Shown one piece after another: positions 4,797-23,797 of a stretch of DNA of 28,476 nucleotides. The notes beneath the pieces are model-generated. The model was given only the letters and a program-made list of their open reading frames with translations. It did no database searches and had not been told where the DNA came from. Position 1 is the first letter of the stretch. Each line of letters opens with the position of its first letter. The translations under genes and the position numbers were made by a program. The stretch comes from a virus: positions 1-28,476 of the IMG/VR virus record IMGVR_UViG_3300034062_001207. One strand, written 5' to 3'.

Positions 4797-4826
4797 ATAA
4801 AAAAGGGGGCTAATTAAAACCCCCTT
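4797..4826 (-). terminator. Rho-independent terminator after the tail tube gene
   Basis: On the minus strand the hairpin is AAGGGGG, a 10-nt loop, then CCCCCTT, followed directly by a T-run. The 7-bp stem lies at 4803-4809 paired with 4820-4826. It starts about 20 nt after the tail tube stop. The downstream genes have no obvious promoter of their own, so it probably works as a partial terminator. Confidence 0.88.
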
Positions 4827-4846
4827 CTAAATTCGTGTTTATCTAA

Positions 4847-5374: not shown

Positions 5375-5402
5375 AAAAAAAAGGGGGCGGTTAAACCCCC
5401 CT
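5375..5402 (-). terminator. Rho-independent terminator between capsid and tail tube genes
   Basis: Reading the minus strand: AGGGGG, a 9-nt loop, CCCCCT, then a run of eight further Ts. The stem is 5382-5387 paired with 5397-5402. Sequence and layout closely resemble the terminator at 4797-4826. No TAnnTTTG promoter was seen between it and the next start, so partial readthrough is likely. Confidence 0.86.
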
Positions 5403-5420: not shown

Positions 5421-6362
5421 TTAGTCGCAGTAAGCGTCACCACCTACCCAAACAATTTGTGCGTCATTTACAGTATAGAAACCTGCTTTAAAATCCGCTC
5501 TGGCCCCGATACGACGGTCCAAAGTAGTTTTAGAGAAGTCAACGATTTGCAAGTTGTCTTGGTCACCTTCAGCATCCAAAGCGTAGATGAAGTTAGTGTA
5601 GTCAGACAAAATGATTGTGTTTGCAGGAAGACCATACTCAACAACAACTGGGATATCCAAGTAAGTCAAAGACAAACCAACCGTTACGTTTGTTACGTTG
5701 TTTTGTGCAGCCGTAGCAATGCGGTAGTTTGCAGCAACATCAGGAGATACCTTAAACTGCATATTTGCAGGGTTCACCAACATTTCAGGAGTAGCCAAAC
5801 TAAGTGCTTGAGCAAAGCCATTTGTAAGAATGTTTGCAGCAGTAAATCCACCAACTGGAACTGTACCATTGATATAATCACCACTTGTACACAAACGCTT
5901 CAACCAACCATCACAAAGTGAAAGATGACCTTCGCCAGTTGTATCACCTCTCCACATAATCTGTGCAAGTTCTTCGTGTCCTTTTTTCGCCATTTGACCC
6001 CAAAAGAAATTCATGAAAGATGCAACAGAAAAATCAGAGTTTGAACCTTTAGCCATTTCCAAAGCCAACCAAGACTGCTCAAGGTCGAACTGACAAACAG
6101 ATGCTTGAGAAGTCAACGCACAAACGTCGATTTCTACTGCAGAAACTGTAGCTTCTGCGGCGGAAAAATCACAAGAACTTTCTTGTAAAAGTCTGTCGAA
6201 AACCACGGTTGCAATTTTCGTTTTTGCCTTTATCCCCGGAAGAACTCGGTAGTTAGTTACCGCATTTTCCATTCCGTAAAGGATTGAGTAATACTCGGAT
6301 GGGTTTGCTTGAAGTAACGCGCTCGCGTCAACTGTCAAGTCGAATTTGTACTTTTTAGCCAT
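5421..6362 (-). CDS. Major capsid protein
   Basis: 313 residues. The protein follows the protease/scaffold gene with only 3 nt between stop and start, the standard pairing for HK97-fold capsids. It begins MAKKYKFDLTVDASALLQAN and contains alternating alpha/beta segments consistent with an HK97-type capsid, ending in a beta region around RIGARADFKAGFYTVNDAQIVW, a typical capsid C-terminal pattern. A segment with several helices (about 85-135, FFWGQMAKKGHEELAQIMWRG) fits the spine helix. Six cysteines are spread through the chain (motifs SSCDF, DVCAL, SVCQF, SLCDG, RLCTS, AYCD), which is many for a capsid protein. A strong terminator follows the gene. Confidence comes from context and general fold pattern. 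Confidence 0.82.
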   Translation of the reverse strand: MAKKYKFDLTVDASALLQANPSEYYSILYGMENAVTNYRVLPGIKAKTKIATVVFDRLLQESSCDFSAAEATVSAVEIDVCALTSQASVCQFDLEQSWLALEMAKGSNSDFSVASFMNFFWGQMAKKGHEELAQIMWRGDTTGEGHLSLCDGWLKRLCTSGDYINGTVPVGGFTAANILTNGFAQALSLATPEMLVNPANMQFKVSPDVAANYRIATAAQNNVTNVTVGLSLTYLDIPVVVEYGLPANTIILSDYTNFIYALDAEGDQDNLQIVDFSKTTLDRRIGARADFKAGFYTVNDAQIVWVGGDAYCD

Positions 6363-6365
6363 TTC

Positions 6366-7322
6366 TTATTTTTTTAAGAAGTCAATTACTTGGTTAAACT
6401 TTTGTGCCGCTGTCATTTTGATTTCTTCAACGGGTGCGACTTCCTCCGTTTCAGTTAGTTCATTCTTTAGGTCTGCGATAACTTGCAATAGTTCGGAAAT
6501 GCGTTGCTCAATGTATGGGCTAACGATTGCCAAAATAGCGTCGGTGTCTGCTGCTGGGTCAATAGCTGCTTCAACTTCAACAACCTCTTCTTCCTTAACG
6601 GACTCTTCGGTTACTTCGGTTGTGTCTGCTAATTCCACTTCCGTAGACGCTTCAACTTCCATTACTTGCTCCTCAGTCGTAGGAATTTGCACGTCAACAA
6701 CTTGACCGTCTTTTACGATAATCAATGTGCCGTCTTCGAGCGTGTGTTCTCCGTCTGGTAACATATTATTTATTTTTATTTGGTTGCTTAATTTAAGACC
6801 AAGAAAGCCCTCAATAGAAAAGCCTACTTGACCTGCTTCGACTAACTTGTTATAATAGTCCGTGTCCGTGATTTGTGCCGTGACCATTAACGTTCCTTTA
6901 GGTACCTCAATACCGAAAGTGCTTTTAGCCTTGTCGCCTTCCGGGTTGTCAACTAACCACGCTTCGAGAATGTATGCAGGGACGATTTTGTCTCCTTCGT
7001 GTTCCAAGTTAAACAAGTTGCGGTTGTTCAAGTTGAGCATAAAGTCTTTGAAGATCGTGTCTATTTCGACCTCGCTAAATTGTACATAGTACTCGCCCAT
7101 GTCATCGTCACGGCGGTAAATGTCCATTGGTATCATTGCGGGTGCGGTGATGCGGTATTTTTTCTTGTCTGCGAAGTGGCTTTTTGCTTGGGACTTGAAC
7201 GCGACACCCTTAACCAATACGGCAGGGTTTGCGGTGAAAGCGATTGCATCAACTCCTAGCGGTTCAGTGCCATCGTTGTAGGCTTCGTCTATGGTGATTT
7301 TGTAAGTCGGTAGTCCTTCCAT
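6366..7322 (-). CDS. Prohead protease fused to scaffold (XkdF/Peptidase S78-type)
   Basis: 318 residues. The N-terminal half (about 25-185) matches XkdF-like serine proteases: IAFTANPAVLVKGVAF near 27-42, the His site in NLFNLEHE (His108) and the Ser site in VGFSIEGF (Ser169). These proteases trim the scaffold and capsid N-termini during head maturation. The C-terminal half (about 210-318) is very acidic, with many Glu, Val and Thr, and ends in a short basic helix (AAQKFNQVIDFLKK). That is what a built-in scaffold that is digested after assembly looks like. It sits immediately upstream of the capsid gene. The start has TACTTATTAAG shortly before ATG. The protease call is strong; the scaffold role is inferred from composition and position. 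Confidence 0.85.
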   Translation of the reverse strand: MEGLPTYKITIDEAYNDGTEPLGVDAIAFTANPAVLVKGVAFKSQAKSHFADKKKYRITAPAMIPMDIYRRDDDMGEYYVQFSEVEIDTIFKDFMLNLNNRNLFNLEHEGDKIVPAYILEAWLVDNPEGDKAKSTFGIEVPKGTLMVTAQITDTDYYNKLVEAGQVGFSIEGFLGLKLSNQIKINNMLPDGEHTLEDGTLIIVKDGQVVDVQIPTTEEQVMEVEASTEVELADTTEVTEESVKEEEVVEVEAAIDPAADTDAILAIVSPYIEQRISELLQVIADLKNELTETEEVAPVEEIKMTAAQKFNQVIDFLKK

Positions 7323-7348
7323 TGACTTAATAAGTACACGAAAAATGT

Positions 7349-7384
7349 TTTGGTTAATTTTTAAACATAATTTTTATACCTTTG
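7349..7384 (+). promoter_or_regulatory. Candidate Bacteroidota-type promoter for the plus-strand chaperone genes
   Basis: TTTG at 7349-7352 and TACCTTTG at 7377-7384 fit the Bacteroidota -33/-7 pattern (TTTG or TTG, then TAnnTTTG). The 24-nt spacer is slightly longer than the usual 17-23. The intervening DNA is very AT-rich. Transcription would start about 10 nt before the ATG at 7400. It is the only promoter-like site in the 77-bp gap between two divergent genes that points rightward. Confidence 0.6.
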
Positions 7385-7399
7385 GTTAAAATCTAAACA

Positions 7400-7957
7400 A
7401 TGATTCAAATTTACGGGGCTGAAATACCCAACCAACTAAACGAGTTAACCGTTGATCAGTTCGACCACCTCAACAAAATTGAGAATAACATCGAGTTAGA
7501 CACCATCGAAAAGTGGATAGAGAAATTTATCTACTTGGGTGTTGAAGAAAAAGCCTTCGATTCAATGGAACTTGACGAGTTCGCAAACTACATTAAAGAC
7601 TTCAATAAGTCCGACCTACCAAGCACCGAAAAGGTGACGCAAATTGTCATTGATAAATACACTTATGAGACCTCCGAGAATATCGGTGTTAAAGACTTAG
7701 GAATGATTGAGAAAATTTACCGCAGTCAAGACGACAATTTTACCGCTCAAACACTTGCAATTTTATTCAAACGAACGGACCTTACACGAACCGAACACTA
7801 CGCACCTGCGCACCTTAAATTGAAAACTAATTTGTTCAAGAAACAAACAGCAGAAATTGCATTTCCGTACATTCTCGATATTCTACAAAAGATAACCAAG
7901 ATAACCGAAAAGAAAGTTGATGAAACTACCGAAGAGTTGGAGCGAGGTAACGGTTAA
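7400..7957 (+). CDS. Probable tail assembly chaperone, first of pair
   Basis: 185 residues, helical and acidic. It is one of only two plus-strand genes. The N-terminal motif IPNQLNELTVDQFDHLNKI is echoed in the next gene (LPKSWSEVTVNQWVELNSI), so the two are paralogues. A pair of small overlapping helical genes in a virion cluster is characteristic of tail assembly chaperones, which bind the tape measure while the tail tube polymerises; this is inference from layout. The 3' end overlaps the second gene by 38 nt in a different frame. The two frames are offset by +1, not the -1 used by lambda G/GT. No strong Shine-Dalgarno sequence precedes the ATG, as is usual for Bacteroidota. Confidence 0.6.
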   Translation: MIQIYGAEIPNQLNELTVDQFDHLNKIENNIELDTIEKWIEKFIYLGVEEKAFDSMELDEFANYIKDFNKSDLPSTEKVTQIVIDKYTYETSENIGVKDLGMIEKIYRSQDDNFTAQTLAILFKRTDLTRTEHYAPAHLKLKTNLFKKQTAEIAFPYILDILQKITKITEKKVDETTEELERGNG

Positions 7958-8657
7958 TCAATGGGTCGAGTTAAACTCAATAGACCCTAACGAATTTAAC
8001 AGCGTGTTTCTACACACGTTGGAAAGTCTTTCTATACTCTCCGATACAGACCCCGAAGAGTTGGAAGACCTAACCCCTGAAGAACTCATTGACCTTGCCA
8101 GTGAAGTTTCTTTTATTAAGCGTGAGCCGTCCAATAAGCCTAAACAAGCCGTGAAAGGTTTTATGTTAAAGCCGTTGGACGCGCTTACCTTAGGGGAGTT
8201 CATAGATTTAGAATACTATATAAGTCAAACCACCGAGAATTTTACGCTTTTGCTTAGTATATTATACAAACGTTGGAAACGTGACGAGTGGGGCAACTTA
8301 TTATTTGAGCCTTACACCTACAAGTTAAACGAACGTACCGACCTATTTAACGAAGTCAGCATTAATGAAGTCTTTGGTGCAATAAACAATTACGTAACCT
8401 ATTCAAACGACTTTAAACAACGATACGAGAACCTATTTAACCCAGTTATCGAACAAGACGAGGAAGTCGAGTTAGACCCTGAGGACCTTAAAGCCGAAGC
8501 CGAAGAAAAGGTGTTTACTAAATGGTCGTGGGAAAAACTACTTTATGACATATCCAACCAAGACCTCACAAAGGTAGATGCAGTTACGGACCTACCTTTA
8601 GTGTTTGTGTTTAATATGCTGTCAATGGTCGAAGAATTACAACTAAATAAAGATTAG
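7920..8657 (+). CDS. Probable tail assembly chaperone, second of pair
   Basis: 245 residues from the ATG at 7920; a TTG directly before it (7917) could also start the frame. I prefer ATG because its first residues (MKLPKSWSEVTVNQWVELN) align with the start of the neighbouring paralogue: 8 of 20 positions identical over the best segment. The protein is helical and acidic, with a Pro/Glu/Asp-rich stretch DTDPEELEDLTPEELIDL near 39-56 and another acidic linker near 180. Upstream in this frame a TAA at 7902-7904 limits any frameshift product to slippage between 7905 and 7957. The stop overlaps the stop of the convergent minus-strand gene in the 4-nt sequence TTAG. The chaperone role is inferred from pair layout and context. 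Confidence 0.6.
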   Translation: MKLPKSWSEVTVNQWVELNSIDPNEFNSVFLHTLESLSILSDTDPEELEDLTPEELIDLASEVSFIKREPSNKPKQAVKGFMLKPLDALTLGEFIDLEYYISQTTENFTLLLSILYKRWKRDEWGNLLFEPYTYKLNERTDLFNEVSINEVFGAINNYVTYSNDFKQRYENLFNPVIEQDEEVELDPEDLKAEAEEKVFTKWSWEKLLYDISNQDLTKVDAVTDLPLVFVFNMLSMVEELQLNKD

Positions 8658-9124
8658 CCGTAAATATTCCACATCTTATCGTAGTCGAAAATCTTGTTCC
8701 ACTTGTCATCTTCAGAACCAAACAAGTTGTATTGAATGTTTACTTTAACGTTGTCAACGGTCATGCCTACGGAATCAGTATTTAAGAATGGGTACTTTTT
8801 AATCATCCAAGTAATGTACTCATCTATTGCCTCTCTAATAAATCGTTGACCATTATTTGATGCAAGAGCATTTTGCGTGATATAATGCGGGCGTATATTT
8901 CCTCCGTTTGTTAACTCTGCACCCTTATCCAAGAACATATAGTAATAAATAGCACTAATTTCTACATACAAGTTATTTACGTCACCACTACCAGCAGAAA
9001 TACGAATCGAGTCTTTCATTGTACCAAGTTGTACTAAGCCTTGGCGCTGTATTTCTTGTTGAATTGCACGCTGTAAATGTACTCGTGTTTTGTATTTTAT
9101 GTTGTATTGTCCCGGTAGTGCCAT
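8654..9124 (-). CDS. Small virion protein, possibly HK97 gp10-like tail completion factor
   Basis: 156 residues. The first 40 are helical and basic, then strands around NLYVEISAIYYYMFLDKGAEL (about 50-70). The pattern 'Y...F.DKG' following a beta strand is reminiscent of HK97 gp10-type head-tail completion proteins, where a tyrosine-rich strand precedes a Gly turn, but the match is weak. The C-terminus has NVKVNIQYNLFGSEDDKW. It follows the large baseplate or fibre-like gene and converges on the plus-strand chaperone gene, sharing four bases at the stop codons. The leader on the minus strand reads TTACTTAAAAGGTTATG, a close variant of the leader at 13254. Function uncertain. Confidence 0.6.
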   Translation of the reverse strand: MALPGQYNIKYKTRVHLQRAIQQEIQRQGLVQLGTMKDSIRISAGSGDVNNLYVEISAIYYYMFLDKGAELTNGGNIRPHYITQNALASNNGQRFIREAIDEYITWMIKKYPFLNTDSVGMTVDNVKVNIQYNLFGSEDDKWNKIFDYDKMWNIYG

Positions 9125-9154
9125 AACCTTTTAAGTAATTCGTGTTTATGTTGG

Positions 9155-11851
9155 TTAAATAATAAGCCAAGCCGTTGCTCCATTTGATAATAAACGAACA
9201 CTTGACAAAGAAGTTAATGAATAACTAATTGCAGTATCAATCACATCCGTACCAAAAGGGTAAATAGTATTTGTAAATCCGTTTGTTCCTTTGATAATAA
9301 ATACTTGACCTATATTTTCATCGTTTGCCTTTGGTAAATACACATTAATTGCTCCAGTGATATTTGCACATATAAGAACACAATTATCTATATTTAGGTA
9401 GTAGTCAACTGTGGTTTTTGCAATAGGTAACTGAAGCCCTCCCGAAATAGCAAGACTTGCAATTTTCGCAACGTCCGCACCTAGTCGCTCGGTAACGATA
9501 CCTGTTTGGTCGAGCATCTTACCATTGCCTACAATGATACCATTAACACCCGGTTGTATTACGTTACCTTGCCCGTATATTGCGCTCGTTGACGTGGAAG
9601 GTATAACGTTACCTACGAATGAATTGTTAAAGTGTATACTTCCCGTGTGACTTGCTAAGTCTCCGATTGTCGTTGGAGTAACCGACCCCTTAGCAAATGG
9701 GGCTAAGTCTATTTCGGTGTCTACACTCATCAACTCAACCTTAGTCAAGTTTTGAGCGTTGCAGTCGTAATCAATTACTTTGTTGATAGTCCACCAACTA
9801 TTGTCTATTCGTATCTTGTCGTTTAGCTTTAGCCGTTGTATATCGTCTTCGCGTAGGTCGAAGAACGCAGTCAACATCTTACCCACGTTTATTTGATTAA
9901 CCGTGCGTCTCCAATATAGGTTATATAGATTGTTATTCGTGATCGTATAACCTTCGTAAAACATGTAGTCGGGCTGTCCGAACAAAATATCGAATGTCGG
10001 GTTAATAGGGTCGTCCCAATGGTGTAAAATTGGGTAGGTCGTTACACCACTTTCTCCAGTTGTTCCGTAGTCGTAAATGTTGTAAGCGTCACACGTACCT
10101 ACACCCCCATCGTGTAAGATACGAATGTTAACTTTTGGCTCACCTGACAAAGTAGGTAGGTAAGCGTTAAACGTGCTTTGTGCTATTGGTGTAGGTGAGA
10201 ACGTAATTTCTTTGGTGTCTATTCCTTTAACATATTCGTTGTTAAAAATAAACTCAAGTTGTCCGTAAATTTCTTTAGTAGCTTCAAAGTATATTTTGTT
10301 CGGGTCGTCGCTGTCTTGCTTGTAAGTTAAGATCAGTTTCTTTGCGCTCAATTCAGGAAGGAATTGTAACGCTTGGTCTTTGTCTTTAGCTAATTTGTAG
10401 GTCCAATCTATTTCCGCTCCGCTGTCGTAGTAATCGTCTCGATGCATTAACACCAAGTTGTTAGGAATGTCGGTGTCTTGTTCCGTATATAAATTATACA
10501 TCGTGAAAATTGACTTAATAAAGTCCGCTTGTTTTACTTTGTTCGGGACGCTGTTATTCATGTTGATGACAGCACCATAACCAACTATTGAAGCCGAAGG
10601 GAGTATTTTTATGCTTAGGCTATTAAACACTATTTCACTCGTAACCGTTACGGGAGTGTCTAAGGGTGTTGGTCCATCTAACCATTGAAGATTATTCGAT
10701 AACTGCGCATTGATACCACCTAAGAAATTTAAAACGTCAGTAAGTATTAAGTTACCTACCAACAAATTTATGGTAAGGTCAAAGTTTCCTATCGTGTTAC
10801 TTCCTACGGCTAATGTGTCGCCTTCGTTTACGTTTACACCATTCGTTAGAATTGTTGCACTTGTCAAAAAGTTACCGTTCTTTTCAATCGTGAAACGTGG
10901 TCGGTAATTACTTGAATAAGTTATGAGTGACGAGGTCATGTCCACATAGTAAGCCGTAGCTGCCGAAGTGTTGACTAAATTAATGTCAGCATTGAAAGTT
11001 ATTTCGACGCTTATATTGTCACTACCTAACAAGTTGAAAGGTGTATCGTATGTTCCCGTAGTAGGGTCAAATAAAGTTTGCGCGTCCGTTACCTCAGTCC
11101 ATCCAGTAAGCAAGTCCGTAAATGTCGCGTTTGGTCCGCTTAAAGTTACCGCGTTGGTTGCCTCAACTAAATAAGTACTATAATCAATCAATGACTTTTC
11201 ACCATTGAAAGGAATGATAAGTTTATCGAAGTGCGCAGCCGTTAACGTGGACCAAGTGTAACTAAACCCCGCTTGTGCGAAGATGCGGTCAAAGTAGGTC
11301 TTTGCGTAAATGGCAGGTTTCATTTCCTGCAAGTAATAGTTATTCGAGTCCTTAAACGGGACAAGGTATTTGTAGCCATCCGATTGCGTATTGCCAAACG
11401 AGTTAACTACATTGATTGCCCGGTATTCGTGGTTAAGGTCTGTAAAGTCTAAGTCAGTAAGTTCCTTGTTTCCTAACTTAGTAAAGAAGTCCGAAGATTC
11501 GTCTTTTATCAATACCTCATATTCAACCTCGTTCTCGTAGTCCGCAGTCGTTTGTACTTTGTTAACCGCGACAAGTTGAAGGTAGCCAGACTCTAAAACT
11601 GGAAGTCCGTTTTGAATAATCGAGCAACGTGTTAAGGTGTTTATGTTAAACGTTCCTGCCTGAATGTTTACGTCATAATAGTGGTTTAGTAAGTTGTGAT
11701 TGTTAGCCGTCCCCGTTAGCGTGATCGTCTTACTAAAAGCCCCCGAACGTTTACTCACGTCACGAATATCCGCTACACCAAAATTAAGGGGGAAGGCTGT
11801 ACCCTCTTTAACGTCAAGGTAGCCCGTTTCAAGTTGTATTCTTACACTCAT
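9155..11851 (-). CDS. Large tail/baseplate protein with fibre-like C-terminus
   Basis: 898 residues, the largest gene in the window. The N-terminal 150 residues (MSVRIQLETGYLDVKEGTAF, then ADIRDVSKRSGAFSKTI) resemble the start of large tail-tip proteins in Bacteroidota phages. The middle is beta-rich and Asn/Thr-rich with many YY and YN pairs. The last 130 residues, with VYLPKANDENIGQVFIIKG and a C-terminal SSVRLLSNGATAWLII, have the shape of a tail-fibre tip: a strand, 'G.V..IK', then a final 'L.SNG..W.II' strand. It probably forms part of the baseplate or distal tail that touches the host surface, making it a candidate host-range determinant. It starts in an ATGA overlap with the previous tail gene. 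Confidence 0.7.
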   Translation of the reverse strand: MSVRIQLETGYLDVKEGTAFPLNFGVADIRDVSKRSGAFSKTITLTGTANNHNLLNHYYDVNIQAGTFNINTLTRCSIIQNGLPVLESGYLQLVAVNKVQTTADYENEVEYEVLIKDESSDFFTKLGNKELTDLDFTDLNHEYRAINVVNSFGNTQSDGYKYLVPFKDSNNYYLQEMKPAIYAKTYFDRIFAQAGFSYTWSTLTAAHFDKLIIPFNGEKSLIDYSTYLVEATNAVTLSGPNATFTDLLTGWTEVTDAQTLFDPTTGTYDTPFNLLGSDNISVEITFNADINLVNTSAATAYYVDMTSSLITYSSNYRPRFTIEKNGNFLTSATILTNGVNVNEGDTLAVGSNTIGNFDLTINLLVGNLILTDVLNFLGGINAQLSNNLQWLDGPTPLDTPVTVTSEIVFNSLSIKILPSASIVGYGAVINMNNSVPNKVKQADFIKSIFTMYNLYTEQDTDIPNNLVLMHRDDYYDSGAEIDWTYKLAKDKDQALQFLPELSAKKLILTYKQDSDDPNKIYFEATKEIYGQLEFIFNNEYVKGIDTKEITFSPTPIAQSTFNAYLPTLSGEPKVNIRILHDGGVGTCDAYNIYDYGTTGESGVTTYPILHHWDDPINPTFDILFGQPDYMFYEGYTITNNNLYNLYWRRTVNQINVGKMLTAFFDLREDDIQRLKLNDKIRIDNSWWTINKVIDYDCNAQNLTKVELMSVDTEIDLAPFAKGSVTPTTIGDLASHTGSIHFNNSFVGNVIPSTSTSAIYGQGNVIQPGVNGIIVGNGKMLDQTGIVTERLGADVAKIASLAISGGLQLPIAKTTVDYYLNIDNCVLICANITGAINVYLPKANDENIGQVFIIKGTNGFTNTIYPFGTDVIDTAISYSLTSLSSVRLLSNGATAWLII

Positions 11852-14818: not shown

Positions 14819-14980
14819 TTATTTATCCTTTTCACTTTCAGATTTAATCATCTCTTTTGTGGCTAGAAAGTATGCCTTTCGTCTGCTCTTGATGTTCTTA
14901 TTATAAGTGAAGCATTTACCGTTTTCACCGTGTTTGAATCCATCCTTTCCGTTACAACTACAATGAATAATCTTCTCCAT
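14819..14980 (-). CDS. Cys-rich 53-residue protein
   Basis: A short frame not found by length filters. The ATG at 14978-14980 opens a 53-residue frame that overlaps the 3' end of the methyltransferase gene by 23 nt, the same tight packing as the other genes here. It reads MEKIIHCSCNGKDGFKHGEN, and a further Cys follows at about 23. CxC plus a later Cys and two His could bind a metal (inference). The second half is basic and helical (NIKSRRKAYFLATKEMIKSE). It fills the otherwise empty gap between methyltransferase and small terminase. Function unknown. The choice of frame rests on length, overlap style and composition. Confidence 0.55.
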   Translation of the reverse strand: MEKIIHCSCNGKDGFKHGENGKCFTYNKNIKSRRKAYFLATKEMIKSESEKDK

Positions 14981-16160
14981 TCTTTTTGACTTTGAGGTCC
15001 GAATCCAACTTCATCATTCGCTCGACAATAACTTGACAGTATTTTGGGTCTAGTTCCATTCCGTAACATTTCCTTTGGAGTTGGTGTGATGCTACCATAG
15101 TGGATCCACTTCCTGTGAACAACTCCATTATGAGGTTACCTTCCTTACTGCTGTTTTTTAATGCAATGTTGATAAGTTCAATTGGTTTCGTGGTTGGGTG
15201 GAGTTCGCTTTTTGTTGGACGGTCCACATCCCAAACATCAGATTGCTTTCTATCTTCAAGAGGACATAAACGTGGTGCTCCATCTAACCATCCATACCAG
15301 ATGGGTTCGTATTTCGTGTGGTAATCCTTTCTTGACATCACAAGGTGTGATTTATTCCAAATGATGGTGCTACTCCAATGGTAATTGTTTTCGTGGAGTG
15401 CCAACATAAGATTGCCCCATTCTTGAGCAGACATTACCACATAGGTAGGGCATCCTTTCTTTGAGTACATAGCCATCATAGCAAATGCTGAACCCATGAA
15501 GTCTTTGAAATCTCCTGTTGACATTGAGTCATTCATGATTGTCCGTGGTTTGTACCCCATTGGATTACCTTCTTTGACTGCTCCATAGTTTACATTCCAA
15601 GGAGGATCCGTGAAAACCATGTCTGCCTTTTCGCCTTTCATCAATTTCTCCACATGGTCGCTGTCGGTGCTATCTCCACATAATAAACGATGTGGTCCGA
15701 TTTCAAATAGGTCTCCTACAACAATGTCCGTTTCAATACCACCTTCAGGAACATCGTAATCATCCTCTTCCGCTTTAAGGTCTTCGCCTTTAAAGTCAAC
15801 TGGAATATCTAAGCCCCATTCTTCAAGTTGCTCAGTGTCCCATTGATTCGCTAACAAGTCCCAATCCCATTCGCCACCACTTACGTTGTCTTTAATTAGA
15901 AACTCACGTTGTTGGTCTTCCGTTAGGTTGTCCGCTACAATTACTGGCACTTGTTTTAATCCTGCTTCCTTACAAGCACGAAACCTCATGTTACCTCCTA
16001 ATATAACCATGTCGGTATTCACTACGATAGGTCGTATATCTAGCATCTCTGGAAAGTCCTTGATAGATGATACTAAGTTTTTAAACTTGTCGTCTTTGAT
16101 TTGGCGAGGGTTGTTAGGGTTTAATCTTACCTCTGATATTTTTACTAATTTACTTTCCAT
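14958..16160 (-). CDS. ParB-like domain fused to DNA methyltransferase
   Basis: 400 residues with two domains. Residues about 1-120 are ParB/Srx-like: KISEVRLNPNNPRQI, then IRPIVVNTDMVILGGNMRFR with the nucleotide-binding GGNMRFRA (55-62). Residues about 145-390 are a beta-class amino-methyltransferase: motif IV VFTDPPWNVNY (DPPW 185-188), HPTTKP near 321-326 and motif I LFTGSGST (348-354) at the C-terminal end. The order DPPW before FxGxG defines the beta class and predicts transfer of a methyl group from SAM to adenine N6 or cytosine N4. Such fusions are common in phages and mobile elements and are usually orphan enzymes. It is in the late operon just upstream of the terminase genes; no restriction enzyme gene is nearby. 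A role in protecting phage DNA is inferred. Confidence 0.93.
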   Translation of the reverse strand: MESKLVKISEVRLNPNNPRQIKDDKFKNLVSSIKDFPEMLDIRPIVVNTDMVILGGNMRFRACKEAGLKQVPVIVADNLTEDQQREFLIKDNVSGGEWDWDLLANQWDTEQLEEWGLDIPVDFKGEDLKAEEDDYDVPEGGIETDIVVGDLFEIGPHRLLCGDSTDSDHVEKLMKGEKADMVFTDPPWNVNYGAVKEGNPMGYKPRTIMNDSMSTGDFKDFMGSAFAMMAMYSKKGCPTYVVMSAQEWGNLMLALHENNYHWSSTIIWNKSHLVMSRKDYHTKYEPIWYGWLDGAPRLCPLEDRKQSDVWDVDRPTKSELHPTTKPIELINIALKNSSKEGNLIMELFTGSGSTMVASHQLQRKCYGMELDPKYCQVIVERMMKLDSDLKVKKNGEDYSL

Positions 16161-17666: not shown

Positions 17667-17696
17667 CAAATATACGATTATTTTTTAACCAACAAA
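17667..17696 (-). promoter_or_regulatory. Late-operon promoter (TTTG-N18-TATATTTG)
   Basis: On the minus strand, TTTG (17696-17693), an 18-nt spacer and TATATTTG (17674-17667) match the Bacteroidota housekeeping promoter closely. Transcription would begin near 17660, about 10 nt before the ATG at 17650. The -33 TTTG is made from the T-tract of the terminator just upstream. Confidence 0.82.
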
Positions 17697-17720
17697 AAAA
17701 CCCCGTTACTCTTCGGGGTT
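17691..17720 (-). terminator. Rho-independent terminator of the recombination operon
   Basis: Minus strand: AACCCCG, an 8-nt loop, CGGGGTT, then a T-tract. The stem is 17699-17705 with 17714-17720. The stop codon of the preceding 41-residue gene (17706-17708) lies inside the hairpin loop, so translation to the end would compete with hairpin formation. Confidence 0.86.
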
Positions 17721-17831
17721 CAGTCGCTCGAAAGCTGGTAATTGAAAGATGAAACGGGTGTAATCGGTTTTAGTCCGTCTTTGACTACGATATTTGACAT
17801 GGTTCTTGTCAATTGGTTTCCTGCGCTTCAT
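17706..17831 (-). CDS. Very basic 41-residue protein
   Basis: The frame could start further upstream (ATG at 17891, 61 residues), but that would overlap the previous gene by more than 80 nt. The internal ATG at 17829-17831 gives MKRRKPIDKNHVKYRSQRRT and a 23-nt overlap, in line with neighbouring junctions. The first half is strongly basic; the end is AFERLNPEE. The stop codon lies in the loop of the terminator hairpin. It may bind nucleic acid. No family recognised. Confidence 0.5.
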   Translation of the reverse strand: MKRRKPIDKNHVKYRSQRRTKTDYTRFIFQLPAFERLNPEE

Positions 17832-23226: not shown

Positions 23227-23797
23227 TTATTTGTCTCATTACGTTGTTATAGAAAATTTGGTCTTGAGTTAATTCGACTTGAGGTTCTTTTTGTAGGTAT
23301 GGTAAAGTATTATTTAAACTTGACTTCCAGTTTTTAATCTTTCGTGTTTTACCTCCGACAGATACACACCAATCATTACTAACCCAAGAATGGTATTTAA
23401 GGCGCAAAGCGTCTTTTGAAACTTCAGGAAGTTGAACCAATCCATAAGCCACAAACTCGTCAAGAGTTGGTATAGTATTATTGTTATTGTTATTGTTATT
23501 GTTATTAGCTTCGCTTTTGCTTAATTCTTGCTTCGGTTTCGCTTCCTTTTCGCTTACGTTTTGCTTCTGTTTTGGTTTACTTCCGTTTAAGAATCGCTTT
23601 AGATTCGCTTCTATTTGTGGCTTAATAAGCAACCAAAGTGTTTTACTTAACCCGTCAAGTTCAATCTCCTTTTGATTAAACCCCATCTCAAAAATTGCGT
23701 TCCACACATCTGCCTGAACCGTCTTTTCGCACCCTTTTAGTGACTCGAAAAATGACCGATATACAATCATTGTTTCCCTTTCCTTTTCTTTACTCAT
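23210..23797 (-). CDS. Phage replication protein, DUF6291-like
   Basis: 195 residues. The N-terminus (about 10-70) MIVYRSFFESLKGCEKTVQA with MGFNQKEIELDGLSKTLWLL and LIKPQIEANLKRFLNGSK matches DUF6291-type replication or initiation proteins. A linker follows that is rich in Lys, Gln, Glu and Ser and ends in ten Asn residues encoded by an AATAAC hexanucleotide repeat (23477-23506). The C-terminal half (VAYGLVQLPEVSKDALRLKY, then WKSSLNNTLPYL) resembles the C-terminal part of DnaD/replisome-organiser type proteins. It precedes the helicase and lies behind a terminator-like leader. A helicase-loading or origin role is inferred from context. Confidence 0.72.
   Translation of the reverse strand: MSKEKERETMIVYRSFFESLKGCEKTVQADVWNAIFEMGFNQKEIELDGLSKTLWLLIKPQIEANLKRFLNGSKPKQKQNVSEKEAKPKQELSKSEANNNNNNNNNNTIPTLDEFVAYGLVQLPEVSKDALRLKYHSWVSNDWCVSVGGKTRKIKNWKSSLNNTLPYLQKEPQVELTQDQIFYNNVMRQINERNS
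23477..23506. repeat. Hexanucleotide microsatellite coding for ten Asn
   Basis: Alternating AAT and AAC codons on the minus strand; the last four-and-a-half units are perfect. Slippage in steps of six bases would change the linker by two Asn without shifting the frame. Confidence 0.9.

Follow-up and report, generated by a model that had tools for sequence, protein, structure and literature searches.

Genes for tail assembly chaperones of the G/GT type usually belong to the tail module, where they directly precede the tape measure gene on the same strand, a position that is not defining, and the frameshift origin of the long form is likewise usual but not universal. Most long-tailed phages obtain their ratio of short to long chaperone from such a frameshift, which stays among the remaining tail genes. 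In phage lambda gpG has the tape measure as its binding partner, and the T part of gpGT has the tail tube protein; the short to long ratio of 30:1 is critical for tail assembly, and the -1 frameshift of tail chaperones is conserved in long-tailed phages (PMC5009743). Two-gene solutions are also on record: T4-like phages are described as carrying one short and one long chaperone gene and using no frameshift (Vladimirov et al. 2022, cited in PMC10885494), and the chaperones of Microbacterium subcluster EA1 phages come from two separate genes (PMC11659878). The locus presented here, which we read as a pair of tail chaperone genes, resembles lambda in that the short and long forms share their N-terminal part and the long form has an extra C-terminal domain, but it differs in having separate paralogous genes with no slip site, placed opposite to the virion strand, apparently under a promoter of their own, and away from the tape measure candidate. 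It is like the T4-like phages, as far as the cited description goes, in combining one short copy with one long fused copy, and like the long-tailed EA1 phages in encoding its two chaperones separately; it is unlike both in its inversion against the late operon, which is neither described in that account of the T4-like phages nor reported in the available part of PMC11659878. Short and long chaperones from two genes are hence already known, and their inversion against the late operon is apparently undescribed, no account of it having been found in the open-access literature, which is not proof of absence.

The stretch of DNA under study (the window) is the IMG/VR virus record IMGVR_UViG_3300034062_001207, of 28,476 bases. 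Every window gene with a recognisable role is on the minus strand with the exception of two, A and B, whose surroundings are as follows:

7400..7957, plus strand: gene A, 185 aa, predicted G-like (short) tail assembly chaperone
7920..8657, plus strand: gene B, 245 aa, predicted GT-like (long) tail assembly chaperone
8654..8657, 4 nt: overlap of the stop codons of B (plus) and the 156-aa gene (minus), found in most relatives too
8654..9124, minus strand: 156-aa late gene adjoining B, matching P12024S gp42 in position and size
6366..7322, minus strand: head maturation protease, divergent neighbour of A, Peptidase_S78_2-like, just below the Pfam cut-off
5421..6362, minus strand: major capsid protein candidate, homologous to P12024S gp02
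617-2611, in the window: tape measure candidate, 664 aa

The initial annotation had described a plus-strand pair set within a minus-strand late block and overlapping the neighbouring minus gene by 4 nt at the stop codons, and both descriptions hold: ORF strands and coordinates place the pair between minus-strand coding genes on either side, and the TAG stop of B (8655-8657) meets the TTA complement of the stop of the 156-aa gene (8654-8656). The pair adjoins the protease and this 156-aa gene, which is probably of the tail-completion or neck type, and lies away from the tape measure candidate. The ORF of B opens at 7917/7920, with ATG 7920 rather than TTG 7917 as its likely start, and in the window the first 38 nt of B, counted from this ATG, coincide with the 3' end of A, which is read in a different frame. 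A search for Rfam families in the window returned none. Elsewhere in the window (14958-16160), just upstream of the terminase region, a ParB-like nuclease domain is fused to a DNA methyltransferase (phrog_498).

With B as the query, 237 relatives came out of a scan of IMG/VR, and 80 of these were retrieved; scans using distant members as queries added more. B and the protease gene occur together in 116 loci, made up of the window, about 113 different IMG/VR contigs besides it and two repeats. A comparison with related phages had been proposed as a check on whether the inversion is shared, and it is: B lies opposite to the protease strand in 116/116 clade loci and on the same strand in none. 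Being common to all these loci, the inversion is no assembly quirk. It is kept down to about 41% identity in B, and it also survives a rearrangement that places the tape measure gene on the other side of A and B. Median Ka/Ks values computed on the plus-strand frames were 0.06 for A and 0.10 for B, which identifies both as genes under strong purifying selection and not as antisense artefacts. In the capsid-protein tree a single branch separates all the inverted phages (98/99 support; 96% of bootstrap trees), and they form one clade, the exact root being unsure owing to the long branches of the outgroups. The lineage with the flipped pair consists of small freshwater phages; no prophage relative was found in a scan of bacterial genomes. 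A and B had no tblastn match among named phages, and tblastn with the L129 and L124 homologues likewise gave none. Within these phages the tape measure candidate and a 206-aa gene are found downstream of the portal module in the clade of the window, and between the 898-aa and 156-aa genes in another clade (L048, L050 and L056), a difference that represents a module move around the inverted pair.

Upstream of A the following elements were recognised:

7377..7384, plus strand: -7 promoter box TACCTTTG, matching TAnnTTTG of Bacteroidetes sigma-A promoters and separated by 15 nt from the ATG of A
7349..7352, plus strand: -33-like TTTG, 24 nt from the -7 box, kept only in nearer clades
7353..7366, plus strand: imperfect dyad GTTAATTTTTAAAC preceding the -7 box, seen in nearer clades and in single copy in the window
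7385..7399, plus strand: 15-nt leader from the -7 box to the start of A

The consensus TAnnTTTG is that of the Bacteroidetes -7 element (PMC9723704, PMC2483708). Such a box would turn up by chance somewhere in an AT-rich gap of this kind in 10-20% of single sequences, and a lone occurrence is therefore weak evidence; what makes it credible is its conservation across relatives, since it was present in 74/74 distinct upstream regions and stood 12-17 nt before A in those lacking an extra ORF at this point; TA and TTTG are invariant, and the two positions between them differ from clade to clade (CC, TC, AT). Of the rightward promoter proposed in the initial annotation, which comprised TTTG at 7349 and the box at 7377, the second element is thus upheld; the first, a possible -33 element, stands 24 nt from it in the window and is absent from distant clades. 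Taking the conserved box as a basis, transcription of A and B from their own rightward sigma-A-type promoter is supported, and the dyad is a possible operator.

The opposite strand was inspected for the elements that would carry, stop or renew leftward late transcription:

17667..17674, minus strand: promoter-like box TATATTTG, reading toward A and B from the opposite side
17698..17721, minus strand: GC-rich terminator-like hairpin with a T tail, just upstream of TATATTTG
5381..5402, minus strand: terminator-like hairpin after the capsid gene
4801-4828, minus strand: strong terminator-like hairpin from the terminator scan
7406..7413, minus strand: TAAATTTG inside the 5' end of A, a possible protease promoter present in only 20/66 relatives

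The box at 17667..17674 is the probable promoter of the late block. Our terminator scan of 7000-9300 yielded 2 candidates against 1.9 expected by chance, none of them at the stop of B, in agreement with the earlier statement that no terminator is visible at the convergent stops, and strong minus-strand hairpins were found elsewhere. The hairpin after the capsid gene suggests that terminators of such a kind are used in this phage, yet not at the stop of B. This hairpin and that at 4801-4828 both separate genes of the late operon (capsid, 168-aa and 115-aa), no TAnnTTTG is visible after either, and they may be attenuators lowering expression after the capsid gene. A conserved minus promoter within A serving the protease was dropped as a candidate owing to its limited distribution. 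Since the late promoter-like box follows a terminator, the stop of B lacks one, and A and the protease have no conserved minus promoter between them, read-through is likely, and leftward late transcription would probably enter at 17674-17667 and cross A and B.

This arrangement bears on the proposal that the inversion is in itself a regulatory device, whereby leftward transcripts from about 17.6 kb, being antisense to A and B, lower or time the synthesis of the chaperones. The position of the box behind a terminator, the convergent stops with no terminator and with a 4-nt overlap in most relatives, and the protease with no conserved minus promoter, which makes read-through across A and B the likely source of capsid transcripts, are all consistent with it. 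An antisense effect on the levels of A or B finds no support in the sequence, however, and terminators are often missing in compact phage genomes, in which, given a promoter, the layout could be neutral. The antisense passage of late transcription through A and B, as put forward in the initial annotation, thus stands as possible, and control of chaperone amount by this route we regard as rather unlikely.

In ten distinct relatives an extra plus-strand ORF is found exactly between the promoter leader and the start of A, a feature overlooked in the initial annotation:

L002, 5247-5525: inserted ORF
L006, 3786-4013: inserted ORF
L009, 8354-8521: inserted ORF
L012, 9253-9477: inserted ORF
L018, 1966-2133: inserted ORF
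L020, 9175-9453: inserted ORF
L023, 9269-9484: inserted ORF
L028, 8500-8721: inserted ORF
L029, 9202-9453: inserted ORF
L035, 9253-9453: inserted ORF

These ORFs are of 55-92 codons and comprise several unrelated sequences, for which the family search gave no clear family of known function. The promoter is followed, then, by a variable slot for cargo genes, and because the insert lies between the leader and A the promoter would drive the insert first and A and B after it. Some of the inserts share their C-terminal half and differ in the N-terminal half, and one type is probably a small membrane-bound protein.

Profile-profile alignment with hhalign matched residues 9-155 of A to residues 3-152 of B with a probability of 95.9%; A and B are paralogues, a point also overlooked at first. 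Both have the same N-terminal domain, and B has an additional C-terminal domain that matches the slipped frame of the outgroups. AlphaFold models of the two proteins (mean pLDDT 87.5 for A and 83.9 for B) match a common set of unnamed phage proteins, including I6R9M9 (175 aa) of Nonlabens phage P12024S, which by its length we take to be gp38, and match weakly proteins named tail assembly chaperone. The top match of the A model in the PDB is the HK97 tail assembly chaperone 2ob9, a weak one (Z 3.1, rmsd 3.6 over 65 residues), and among the PDB matches listed for the B model there was no chaperone, an absence that does not point to a different fold. Neither Pfam (window proteins) nor PHROGs (A, B and all aligned members) returned a significant family, and a profile search of PDB sequences gave unrelated weak matches only.

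More informative in this respect are the outgroups, namely P12024S (Inhavirus; NC_018271; locus L082), in which homologues of the window's protease, capsid, portal and further virion genes can be recognised, and three metagenome lineages (L124-L128, L129 and L136). Gene gp38 of P12024S lies directly after TerL on the strand of the virion genes, and the metagenome lineages have their B homologue after TerL as well (L126 is cut before TerL). Where these genes are on the contig the outgroup homologue is co-directional with TerL and the tail genes, and in P12024S, L129 and L136 it also shares the strand of the protease, capsid and portal genes. All the loci examined for it (P12024S, L124, L125, L128, L129 and L136) have a run of T7-T10 inside the ORF, at which a -1 slip enters a frame continuing as the C-terminal domain, and a KW(S/G)W motif is encoded in this -1 frame in P12024S, L136 and L124/L125/L128, L129 being a weaker case without it. 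The B profile matches the slipped fusions of L124/L125/L128 and of L136 unbroken over residues about 3-234, scoring 44.3 and 40.3 bits against 36.5 and 30.2 for the unslipped forms, respectively, and it matches the second ORF of L136 alone (E 8e-5). B is accordingly collinear with the slipped product of the outgroups and matches, in one frame, what would be their GT form. The A profile prefers the unslipped form of L136 (12.9 bits against 7.8 for the slipped one), both weak scores, so that the resemblance of A to the unslipped G product has weaker support.

The sequence score of the B profile against P12024S gp38 was not significant, and the link between these two proteins depends on structural similarity, on gene order and on the KWSW motif. 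The P12024S annotation has gp38 and gp39 as two hypothetical proteins (L082 23136-23830), but they look like a G/GT pair of tail chaperones joined by a -1 slip on T9, a run located at 23578. P12024S is thus like the window in its set of virion genes, with gp38 and its -1 frame as the counterpart of B, and unlike it in having a single gene, on the virion strand, directly after TerL and with a slip run; compared with lambda, the outgroups look like standard slip-using members. A reverse-strand block in P12024S, with a methyltransferase and small genes (L082 32360-35572), occupies the same tail/protease junction as the inverted A and B. Flavobacterium phage 6H was tried as a further outgroup and set aside as a weak match. 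The tail-chaperone identity given to A and B in the initial annotation is supported by this homology to an outgroup gene of the G/GT type that contains a slip run, together with the weak HK97 top match for A.

The inverted orientation, the separate promoter and the slot of varying small ORFs in ten distinct relatives could also be taken to mean that A and B, instead of being chaperones, make up a moron-like accessory unit under a promoter of its own, encoding for example functions of host take-over or exclusion. An accessory unit of that type is very improbable here. A and B are paired at the same place in the fetched relatives, a set found with B as the query, they are under strong purifying selection and their divergence is comparable to that of the capsid genes; both are moreover homologous to a gene of the outgroup virion module with a G/GT-type slip, and accessory-like behaviour is limited to the inserted ORFs.

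B overlaps A by 38 nt, in the +1 frame, in most relatives; in one clade it starts with GTG just after the stop of A, in the -1 frame. A search of the clade of the window showed no conserved slip run, and the A-B junction is by its sequence not a conserved frameshift. That an A-B fusion is still made by recoding, the overlapping ORFs in different frames being a plain G/T frameshift pair, is barely credible, since B alone already amounts to a full GT-type protein, including an N-terminal chaperone domain homologous to A, the relative frame of the two genes varies between clades, and no conserved run of that kind was seen. A purine precedes the start codon at -3 in 27/29 contexts for A and in 18/37 for B, counts that are suggestive, not decisive, of the start context (A at -3) setting the A:B ratio; B would probably be translated from a start inside or just after A, giving a low ratio of B to A.

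Considering all these results, we find it quite probable that A and B are the short and long tail chaperones of this phage, transcribed from their own promoter, and that they descend from an ancestral slip gene that was duplicated, lost its slip and, as a pair, was moved and inverted. The host would be a member of the Bacteroidetes and the phage probably long-tailed. The ancestor would have had one gene near the terminase, on the strand of the virion genes, both products being made by a -1 slip on a T run; its duplication would have given rise to a continuous GT-type copy (B) and a G-only copy (A) with loss of the slip site, and the pair would have been moved and inverted to its place between the tail-neck gene and the protease, an order of duplication and inversion that we infer. 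In the present phages a sigma-A-type promoter would serve A and then B, and the G:GT ratio would now be set by the relative translation of the two genes. In tailed phages the chaperone is generally co-directional, and because this applies to the outgroups too, inversion plus duplication is most simply regarded as the derived state, a direction of change that relies on parsimony and on long-branched outgroups. A more elaborate version, in which the clade has swapped the near-universal frameshift for a duplicated and flipped gene pair and both ratio and timing are set by the independent promoter and the colliding antisense late transcription, is for us a tentative and rather doubtful idea.

The clade appears to have dropped the frameshift and to have taken its chaperone genes out of the late operon. 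Together with the outgroups that use a slip, it provides a natural test of how phages set the ratio between short and long chaperones, and allows one to ask whether a fixed ratio requires a frameshift or whether this is just one route to it, and also whether placement on the opposite strand adds control. Operons of virion genes read in a single direction can break and stay broken over long divergence.
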